Below, in pieces: positions 45,256 through 47,708 of a stretch of DNA of 64,000 bases. The notes under the pieces are model-generated. The model was not told the origin of the DNA. It saw nothing but the letters and a program-made list of their open reading frames with translations, and ran no database searches. Each line of letters begins with the position of its first letter. The stretch's first letter is position 1. The DNA comes from Chloroflexota bacterium (GTDB taxonomy: Bacteria > Chloroflexota > Anaerolineae > Anaerolineales > Villigracilaceae): contig JACRBN010000025.1 in NCBI GenBank assembly GCA_016213105.1, positions 496,001 to 560,000 of the forward strand, read 5' to 3'. Made by a program: the position numbers and the translations under genes.

Positions 45256-45885
45256 CTACGATAGAATCTGCGGCAAATTCGCCCACTCTTCGAAACAGGC
45301 GTCCGCGTCGGGGTGCGGCCCGGGCTGACCGAACAGCACACCGTGCAGACCAAAGTCCCGCGCGGCGCGCGTGGTGCGCGGCAGGTCGTCAATCATCACA
45401 CAGCGCGCGGGGTCGCTCTCGCCGGCGGCCCGCATCGCAATGGCAAAGGATTCGGGCATGGGCTTGCAGTAGGGCGTCACCGCGTTCACATCCACGATGC
45501 CGTCGAACAGGCCTTCGAGTTGCAGCGCGGCCAGCACCCGTTGGGCGTGGGGCACATCCGCGTTGGTGAAGATCAACTTGCGCTGGGGCAGGCTGGCGAT
45601 CACCTCGCGCTGGAGCGGATTCGGGGTCAGGAAATCCTGGAGCGGCGCATCATGCACGTAGGCCAGGAATTCCTGCGTATCCACCTGGTGATAGGCCTGC
45701 AAGCCGCGCAGTGTGGTGCCGAATTGCAGGAAGTACTGTTCGCGCAGGCGGGAGATCTGGTCGACGGGAATGCCGAGACGTTCGCGCATGTAATCGCTCA
45801 TGCGCTTCTTGAGCAAAGTCCACAGGCCGGTCGAAGCGGGATACAGGGTGTCGTCAAGGTCGAAGAACAGGGTGGTGAAACGCAT
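45256..45885 (-). CDS. HAD-superfamily hydrolase, pyrimidine 5'-nucleotidase-like
   Basis: 209 residues. Motif I is FFDLDDTLYP (nucleophile D9, D11), with motif II LIFTNAD, motif III Lys in YCKPMPESF and motif IV VMIDDLPRTT. The helical cap and the DTLYPAS pattern fit the pyrimidine 5'-nucleotidase subgroup related to yeast Sdt1/Phm8; substrate choice is uncertain. The start lies 6 bases from the shared ATTATAAT element, with no Shine-Dalgarno sequence. Confidence 0.87.
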   Translation of the reverse strand: MRFTTLFFDLDDTLYPASTGLWTLLKKRMSDYMRERLGIPVDQISRLREQYFLQFGTTLRGLQAYHQVDTQEFLAYVHDAPLQDFLTPNPLQREVIASLPQRKLIFTNADVPHAQRVLAALQLEGLFDGIVDVNAVTPYCKPMPESFAIAMRAAGESDPARCVMIDDLPRTTRAARDFGLHGVLFGQPGPHPDADACFEEWANLPQILS

Positions 45886-45891
45886 CCGCCG

Positions 45892-45899
45892 ATTATAAT
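45892..45899. promoter_or_regulatory. Shared palindromic -10 for two divergent leaderless genes
   Basis: ATTATAAT reads as TATAAT on both strands. The plus-strand hexamer ends 6 bases before the mutL ATG (45906), and the minus-strand hexamer ends 6 bases before the HAD ATG (45885). Only 20 bases separate the two start codons. Confidence 0.7.
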
Positions 45900-45905
45900 G
45901 GACAC

Positions 45906-47708
45906 ATGCCCATTCGACTGCTCTCTTCAGAAGTAGCCTCGCAGATCGCCGCGGGGGAAGTCATCGAACGCCCCGCCTCGGTGGTAAAGGAACTGGCCGA
46001 GAACGCGCTGGATGCGGGCGCGCGCGCGCTGACGATTTCCATTGCGGAAGCGGGACGCGTGCTGGTCGAAGTCGCCGACGACGGAAGCGGCATCCCCGCC
46101 TCCGAACTGGCGCTGGCCGTCGAACGCCATGCGACCTCGAAGCTGGTCCAGTCCGATGACCTGTTCCACATCTCGACGCTGGGATTCCGCGGCGAGGCGC
46201 TGGCCTCGATTGGTTCGGTCTCGCGCATGACCATCACCTCGCGTGTGGCGGATTCGCCCGCAGGGGCGCGGCTGCGCGTCGAAGGCGGAATCAGCGGCAG
46301 GGTCGAGCCGGTCGGCGCGCCGGTCGGCACGGTGGTGCGCGTGGAGGATCTATTCCACAACGTGCCCGCCCGCCTGAAATTCCTCAAAGCCGACGTGACC
46401 GAGCGCCGCGCCATCGACAACCTGGTCACGCGTTACGCGCTGGCTTACCCCAACGTGCGCTTTAAATTGAGCGAAGGCAAAAGCGTCTCGCTGCAAACCG
46501 CCGGTGACGGCGACCGCCGCGCCATCCTGGCCGCGCTGTATGGCGTGGACGTGGCGAAGCAGATGCTGGAGGTCATCTCCGAGGAGGAGGGCCTGCGCCT
46601 GACGGGCTACATCAGCCCCACTTCCCTGACGCGTTCGAACCGCAAGGAAATTACCTTCTTCGTCAACGGCCGCTGGGTGCAGGAGATGGCCTTGAACACG
46701 GCCGTCATCCAGGCCTATCACACCCTGCTGATGGTGGGACGCTACCCGCTCACGGCGCTCTTCCTGGAGATGTCTCCCGAAGACGTGGACGTGAACGTAC
46801 ATCCCGCCAAGGCCGAGGTGCGCTTCAAGAGTCAGGATCGCGTCTTCAGCTTCGTCCAGCGTGCGGTGCGCCGCGCCTTATTGGCCTACACGCCCATCCC
46901 ATCCGTGGCGCCGACCACGCTGTGGGGCGGACGCCCGTCCGAGCCGCGCGAGATCGGGCTGGATTGGACGATGGCGGGGCAGGCTGGAAGTCAAATGTCA
47001 AATGTCGAAGGTCCCGTTCCACTCGATGAATCCGCTCCTCCACCGACATCCGACCCTTCGTCAGGCTCAGGGCAGGCACTTCGACCTTCGACTGCCCAAT
47101 CAGGTTCAGTGCCAGCTTTCAACCTGCCACTCTTAAGACTTATCGGCCAGATCGGATCGGCCTACCTCGTGGCCGAAGGTCCCGACGGGTTATACCTGAT
47201 CGACCAGCACGCCGCGCATGAAAGGGTGTTATTCGAGAAATTGATGGTTCAGCACGAAATGAAAAGCATCCCCTCGCAGTCGCTGTTGACTCCCGCCGTG
47301 GTGCATCTGCCGCCTGCGCAGGCCAAACTGCTCGAAGGCCAGTTGGACATCCTGAATCATTTCGGCTTCGAGGTGGAACTCTTCGGCGCAAACGCCTTCC
47401 AGGTGCGCGCCATGCCGACCATCTTCCGCGGCAGCGACCCGTCGCTGGCGTTGCGCGCGCTGGTCGAGGATTTCGAAGAGGACGAGACGCCGCTCCAGGC
47501 CGAAGTGGAGGCGAAACTGGCAGGACGCGTGTGCAAGCGGCTGGCCGTCAAGGCGGGGCAGACCCTGACCCCCGAGGAGCAGCGCGCCCTGCTGAACGAT
47601 CTCGAGTCCTGCGAATCGCCGCGCACCTGTCCGCACGGCCGGCCGACGATGATTCATCTGTCCGTGGATATGCTCGAACGCCAGTTTGGGAGGAAAGGTC
47701 CGCGCTAG
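45906..47708 (+). CDS. mutL: DNA mismatch repair protein MutL with endonuclease motif
   Basis: 600 residues. N-terminal GHKL ATPase: KELAENALDAGA, VADDGSGIP and TLGFRGEALASIGS. The C-terminal domain has the nicking-endonuclease motif DQHAAHERVLFE from D433 (DQHAx2Ex4E) and the zinc-site region CESPRTCPHGRPT, as in organisms that lack MutH. The linker (~355-410) contains heptad and dispersed repeats (46989-47076) and is likely disordered. No mutS is nearby. Transcription probably starts next to the ATG from the shared element. Confidence 0.95.
   Translation: MPIRLLSSEVASQIAAGEVIERPASVVKELAENALDAGARALTISIAEAGRVLVEVADDGSGIPASELALAVERHATSKLVQSDDLFHISTLGFRGEALASIGSVSRMTITSRVADSPAGARLRVEGGISGRVEPVGAPVGTVVRVEDLFHNVPARLKFLKADVTERRAIDNLVTRYALAYPNVRFKLSEGKSVSLQTAGDGDRRAILAALYGVDVAKQMLEVISEEEGLRLTGYISPTSLTRSNRKEITFFVNGRWVQEMALNTAVIQAYHTLLMVGRYPLTALFLEMSPEDVDVNVHPAKAEVRFKSQDRVFSFVQRAVRRALLAYTPIPSVAPTTLWGGRPSEPREIGLDWTMAGQAGSQMSNVEGPVPLDESAPPPTSDPSSGSGQALRPSTAQSGSVPAFNLPLLRLIGQIGSAYLVAEGPDGLYLIDQHAAHERVLFEKLMVQHEMKSIPSQSLLTPAVVHLPPAQAKLLEGQLDILNHFGFEVELFGANAFQVRAMPTIFRGSDPSLALRALVEDFEEDETPLQAEVEAKLAGRVCKRLAVKAGQTLTPEEQRALLNDLESCESPRTCPHGRPTMIHLSVDMLERQFGRKGPR
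46989..47076. repeat. Heptad tract and dispersed repeat in the MutL linker
   Basis: Heptads AAGTCAA, ATGTCAA, ATGTCGA, AGGTCCC (46989-47016). A 23-base segment containing CTTCGTCAGGCTCAGGGCAG (47054-47076) matches 32155-32177 with one difference but is read in another frame (SSGSGQA here, LRQAQGR there). Confidence 0.65.

Follow-up and report, generated by a model that had tools for sequence, protein, structure and literature searches.

A palindromic -10 element shared by divergent mutL and pyrimidine 5'-nucleotidase genes is probably the core of a bidirectional promoter with leaderless transcripts

It is established that bidirectional promoters can have two transcription starts separated by 7-25 bp (PMC10268837, PMC12825309), and the accessible portions of this literature give 18, 10, and 23 bp as the commonest start separations in E. 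coli. For five E. coli bidirectional promoters, the available part of one report describes basal activity that was in every case (5/5) too low for competition between polymerases, with competition appearing upon strong activation (PMC12825309). Divergent leaderless genes are also on record: In M. tuberculosis, both members of the pair prpD/Rv1129c, which includes a regulator, are upregulated together, and the same source, as far as its available text goes, calls closely juxtaposed divergent promoters common (PMC3898074). A survey of leaderless genes assigned the TAtaaT signal to Chloroflexi, in 4 of 12 genomes, with a mean of 4.7% leaderless genes.

The site analysed here lies in a window of 64 kb, by which we mean the whole stretch of DNA under study, from a host genome of 5.39 Mb (28 contigs, 97.55% complete). 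It separates mutL from a divergent gene for a HAD-superfamily nucleotidase (Table 1). According to the preliminary description, a TATAAT stands on each strand, 6 bases from each ATG, with 20 bases between the two ATGs; these positions proved exact, the 20 bases being 6 + ATTATAAT + 6. Since ATTATAAT reads TATAAT on both strands, it is the symmetrical -10 element by which bidirectional promoters are defined, and the 6-nt distance to both ATGs agrees for both genes with the position of the box in leaderless genes, 6-7 nt before the start codon. The geometry is simple: Two TATAAT hexamers on opposite strands that overlap by four bases make up ATTATAAT and put the predicted starts 21 bp apart, and an overlap of two bases makes up ATTATATAAT with predicted starts 23 bp apart. 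The nucleotidase passes TIGR01993 at 193.2 bits (NCBIfam cut-off 142.9), and the MutL protein passes the NCBIfam model mutl. Relatives align from residue 1 in 30/30 loci for mutL and in 41/41 near divergent pairs for the nucleotidase, which, together with these model passes, makes both start codons credible. In one relative (G056:C134:21510-23306), the mutL match holds two TAA stops, reflecting either a real inactivation or an assembly error.

Table 1. Features of the mutL/nucleotidase site (window coordinates) and other places at which the same layout was found (locus identifiers).
Feature	Position or locus	Strand	Basis
HAD-superfamily hydrolase, pyrimidine 5'-nucleotidase (TIGR01993), 209 aa	45256..45885	-	NCBIfam model
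Nucleotidase start codon	45885-45883	-	
Nucleotidase-side spacer, 6 nt	45886..45891	.	sequence
Palindromic shared -10 element ATTATAAT	45892..45899	.	sequence and conserved layout
Nucleotidase -10 box, TATAAT; predicted start of transcription 45885	45892..45897	-	start inferred
mutL -10 box, TATAAT; predicted start of transcription 45906 (A of ATG)	45894..45899	+	start inferred
mutL-side spacer, 6 nt	45900..45905	.	sequence
mutL ATG	45906-45908	+	
mutL, DNA mismatch repair protein, 600 aa	45906..47708	+	NCBIfam model mutl
Layout beside DnaG primase	L032		
Layout beside class-V aminotransferase and glycosyltransferase	L036		
Layout beside SpoU methylase	L041		
Layout beside methyltransferase	L044		
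Layout beside RsmF-like rRNA methyltransferase and creatininase-family protein	L045		
6/6 palindrome at recurrent pair of tRNA-editing-domain protein and class I methyltransferase	L051		Pfam
Same pair	L054, L056, L057, L161		N-terminus only

Judging from the letters of the site and their conservation, we consider it highly probable that ATTATAAT is the core of a bidirectional promoter without a recognisable -35 element, in which two overlapping -10 boxes would direct leaderless mRNAs both ways. The position of the boxes is the first line of evidence. We collected 58 mutL loci from 61 genomes of the family (two of the three absent genomes had no match, and in G024 the mutL start was not covered), and the mutL -10 box lies exactly 6 nt upstream in 53 of them, as TATAAT in 47 and as TAGAAT or TAAAAT in 6. 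In the other loci, TATAAT stands at 7 nt (3 loci) or at 8 nt (1 locus, L016, whose TAATAT at 6 nt was taken as chance), and one locus has none. A nucleotidase gene is near and divergent from mutL at 41 of the 58 loci. The other 17 comprise 15 loci with no nucleotidase match, among them L024 with only 143 upstream bases, and two (L011 and L125) in which the nucleotidase is more than 1 kb away. The nucleotidase TATAAT in the 41 pairs is at 6 nt in 32, at 5 nt in 1, at 7 nt in 5, at 8 nt in 1, and absent in 2. The exact 6-nt spacing is thus missing at 5/58 mutL loci and 9/41 nucleotidase loci, which counts against our explanation.

The host genome as a whole points to the same type of promoter. 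Over 300 kb, the gap from TATAAT to ATG (range 0-30) peaks at 6 nt with 10 cases, the next highest value being 4 (at gap 30), as would be expected for leaderless genes. When only ORFs of at least 100 aa in the same 300 kb are considered, 6 of 248 have gap 6 and at most 2 have any other gap; with the looser TANNNT, there are 16 at gap 6 vs. at most 11 elsewhere. For the -35 region, we profiled 45 shared loci, 2 of the 47 nucleotidase/mutL pairs described below being left out for incomplete context. No TTGACA-like hexamer (at least 4/6 matches) was found at spacers of 16-19 in either direction in these 45 loci. Reading towards mutL, 14 of the 45 do have at least 4 matches to TTGACA at a spacer of 15; these matches are perhaps due to the codons of the neighbouring gene, or there may be a weak -35 element in the mutL direction, which would count against our explanation.

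Comparison of the 41 near divergent pairs shows what is conserved at this site. In 15 of them, one ATTATAAT is common to both genes, with gaps of 19-23 (exactly 20 in 12 of the 15), and in 26 the box is not shared, with gaps of 27-172. Every pair with a gap under 27 bp, that is, all 15, has ATTATAAT with the four-base overlap, and none lacks it; as "shared" was defined as ATTATAAT with a gap of at most 23, this overlap follows partly from the definition. Where the box is split, mutL has its own box in 26/26 pairs and the nucleotidase its own TATAAT in 24/26, the exceptions at the nucleotidase being L133 (GATAAT) and L025 (no clear box). The genus-mate L003 belongs to this group, with two boxes in a 79-bp gap. 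At unshared loci, ATTATAAT is found at the mutL box in 1/43 and at the nucleotidase box in 0/26. In nearly every case, then, the palindrome amounts to two superimposed -10 boxes. In three of the 26 split pairs (L007, L010, and L146), there is a palindrome of 10 bases, ATTATATAAT, at the nucleotidase box, the mutL box being separate; symmetry is therefore not confined to shared sites, which again speaks against our explanation. In L010, the insert between the boxes contains an inverted repeat.

To place these states on a tree, we used the first 130 aa of MutL together with the nucleotidase (41 rows, midpoint root; 10 of 38 inner branches are open, and L148 is very long). Nine changes between shared and split are needed, at least six of them forced by well-supported branches, and the states are somewhat clustered (values as low were reached in 12 and 16 of 500 shuffles). 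The element that stays conserved is the individual -10 box of each gene, and sharing comes and goes. The repeated change within the family also speaks for sharing as a tolerated or economical arrangement and against its being required for control. In a second family of the order (L173-L202), 27 of 30 outgroup loci have a readable mutL start. The pair is near and divergent in 12 of these 27 (hand count), with gaps of 51-139, and a shared box occurs in none of the 12. Many mutL genes of this second family have a -10 box further upstream together with a GAGG-like site, and from these signals they seem to have leaders; the leaderless state would then be limited to certain lineages, a further point against our explanation. 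At several divergent nucleotidase genes of this family, TATACT lies some 6 nt away from the ATG. The second-family pattern hints that separate boxes may be ancestral, the midpoint root being provisional.

We suggest the following mechanism for the shared site. A polymerase carrying what is presumably the housekeeping sigma factor would bind ATTATAAT in either orientation, and initiation at the A of either ATG would give a leaderless MutL mRNA or a leaderless nucleotidase mRNA. A bound polymerase would block the opposite direction only while sitting there, and the two genes are thus probably transcribed in alternation. Sharing would then be a compact by-product of the need of each gene for a -10 box some 6 nt ahead of the start codon, about 20 bp being the shortest gap that would accommodate both boxes as ATTATAAT (the shortest found was 19). 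Sharing is probably gained and lost through deletions or insertions at the TATA repeat that lies between separate boxes. The fact that all gaps under 27 bp have the 4-bp overlap is consistent with such a deletion route and is no proof of it. More tentatively, and with the balance of our judgement on the doubtful side, -35-less leaderless promoters of the family may repeatedly fuse head to head, by deletion between the TATA direct repeats of two divergent boxes, into the layout of about 20 bp, CAT-N6-ATTATAAT-N6-ATG, and be split again by insertion, possibly with coupling by competition. If this is true, fusion would be a simple mutational route to bidirectional promoters in which neither promoter is lost, and polymerase competition at two perfect -10 boxes might be measurable and might couple mismatch repair with nucleotide clean-up.

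The preliminary description had taken the palindrome as the -10 box of two divergent, leaderless genes, which sequence and conservation bear out with the leaderless state as probable; it had also concluded that MutL and the phosphatase should be expressed in a mutually exclusive manner, and this second part is not supported. Only the binding step is exclusive: The site cannot hold two polymerases simultaneously, but the departure of one frees the other direction, so steric exclusion of binding does not entail exclusive expression. It is improbable that selection keeps the shared box as a switch by which the two genes oppose each other, since the box is unshared in 26 of the 41 pairs, including the genus-mate, and exclusion is thus not a maintained property; the nine changes on the tree and the lack, in the profiled loci, of a consistent -35 box that would bias direction argue the same way. 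To its credit, both boxes are perfect consensus, so that occupancy could exceed that of the tested E. coli promoters, and the clustering of states on the tree is in its favour. The published evidence cuts both ways: In the part of the E. coli study available, basal competition was absent from all five tested promoters, yet competition appeared once one direction was strongly increased (PMC12825309), and the overlapping divergent promoters of EcoRV are described, in the available text, as strongly coupled in transcription (PMC5333194). We regard the site as a known kind of promoter in a well-conserved variant and not as a demonstrated switch. The gene products themselves may be considered here. 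Nucleotide clean-up is a function of relatives of such nucleotidases, and it is a speculation that MutL and the nucleotidase can both be viewed as mutation-avoidance functions; if they are, joint and not opposed expression would be favoured.

A different reading takes ATTATAAT, a perfect palindrome, as an operator for a dimeric transcription factor, its TATAAT content being incidental. Some loci lend it a little substance, for 12 of the 45 shared loci extend the palindrome to CGATTATAATCG, although the window's copy does not. An operator would, however, stay palindromic when the promoters separate, and the near absence of ATTATAAT from unshared boxes leads us to disfavour this reading as very unlikely. 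Moreover, in 40 unshared mutL promoters, too, C is the base that most often follows TATAAT (57%).

The frequency of the layout speaks against chance. ATTATAAT occurs once in the 64-kb window and on average 0.06 times in shuffled versions of it (n = 100; 6 had one). CAT-N6-ATTATAAT-N6-ATG is present in 61 of 150 same-family genomes, at 72 places (hand count); a reversed control pattern was found in 1/150 and a version with 10/10 spacing in 0/150. The layout is thus commoner than chance by this check of our own, which stands outside the published definition of bidirectional promoters. In a draw of 400 genomes from the phylum, the layout was found in 18 (on our count, 12 of 25 same-family genomes and 6 of 375 others) and the reversed control in 1/400. 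We examined 36 of the 72 in-family places (L032-L061 and L161-L166); 34 of them are flanked on both sides by ORFs of at least 119 aa, the exceptions being L041, with 63 aa on one side, and L165, which is chance-like. Among the out-of-family places from the 375 genomes, 6 of 8 were examined and none lies between two ORFs of at least 100 aa. Three of these six (L169, L170, and L171; same phylum, another family) are longer perfect palindromes, possibly operators or repeats.

Conservation of the palindrome and its spacing in relatives, which had been proposed as a check, was confirmed by the family genomes and by a scan of GTDB for the layout in a mutL-specific form: Of the 59 stretches returned, 47 hold true nucleotidase/mutL pairs, and the other 12 match elsewhere by chance. 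The 47 relatives with the pair are Chloroflexota, many of them Anaerolineales; they include Anaerolinea, Brevefilum, and Herpetosiphon, genera that we take to be Chloroflexota. The core sequence in L112 (Candidatus Villigracilaceae, Anaerolineales) is the same as in family genomes such as G126, and the window may belong to Villigracilaceae as well. The box is also shared in L082 and L091, whose MutL is no more than about 62% identical to that of the window. Although the layout does look like chance outside the family, at L165 within it, and in 12 of the 59 scan stretches, we reject as practically negligible the idea that an AT-rich octamer simply fell into a functionless gap, given the reversed pattern, the 10/10 spacing, and the relatives, in which conservation at the nucleotidase/mutL pair by itself contradicts it.

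The layout is found next to other genes, too. The mutL/nucleotidase pair accounts for 25 of the 36 in-family places examined and is the commonest user, and other genes account for 11 (Table 1 names several). Pfam was applied to at most 9 of the 18 proteins that flank six non-mutL places, with four places complete and L051 representing five copies of its pair. In the host genome, ATTATAAT-N3-14-ATG has 19 matches vs. 5 for the reversed control, and four ATTATAAT palindromes, the window's included, have an ATG on both sides. ATTATAAT lies between divergent ORFs at L203 (1519), L204 (1486), and L205 (1475) of this genome, with gaps of 6/7, 9/9, and 23/7; at the 23/7 palindrome, no long ORF begins at the near ATG of one side. 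At L206, also in the host genome (palindrome at 957), ATTATAAT is flanked by the divergent genes of IMP dehydrogenase and adenylosuccinate synthetase, and the nearest ATG of either long ORF is 29 bases away. Purine synthesis divides at IMP into two branches, one for each of these enzymes, and a shared -10 box there, if present, would be good for testing competition between polymerases.

The family offers a natural replicated series in which one gene pair occurs with shared and with separate -10 boxes. Such a series permits a direct comparative test of the regulatory effect of promoter sharing and of how bidirectional promoters form. The site also suggests that, with two leaderless genes as predicted here, a complete divergent regulatory region can be as short as some 20 bp.

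How, then, does the mutL/nucleotidase site compare with the systems described so far? The M. tuberculosis pair prpD/Rv1129c resembles it in that two divergent leaderless mRNAs come from one region (the leaderless state being predicted in our case); on the available part of that report, in which both genes go up together, the likeness concerns the divergent leaderless layout (PMC3898074). The EcoRV restriction-modification promoters likewise have overlapping polymerase sites that couple two divergent genes and, according to the accessible text, differ in being controlled by a C protein (PMC5333194). The survey of leaderless genes reports the same box at the same position as here, and its main text does not contain the words "divergent" or "bidirectional." In the open-access literature that we searched, no report of a palindromic -10 box common to two leaderless genes was found. 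The closest relatives are the prokaryotic bidirectional promoters of Warman, Grainger and colleagues, which, as presented in the portions of that work available to us, have a symmetrical -10 element and divergent transcription as well. The predicted 21-bp separation at our site falls within their 7-25 bp definition, and it differs from the separations of 18, 10, and 23 bp common in E. coli, which counts against our explanation. Unlike those promoters as the same portions portray them, both -10 hexamers here are perfect consensus with no recognisable -35, both mRNAs are probably leaderless, and the layout is retained at one gene pair in many species. The kind of promoter is known; the combination of perfect overlapping -10 boxes, a predicted 21-bp separation, predicted leaderless mRNAs on both sides, and conservation at one gene pair was not found in the open-access literature searched.
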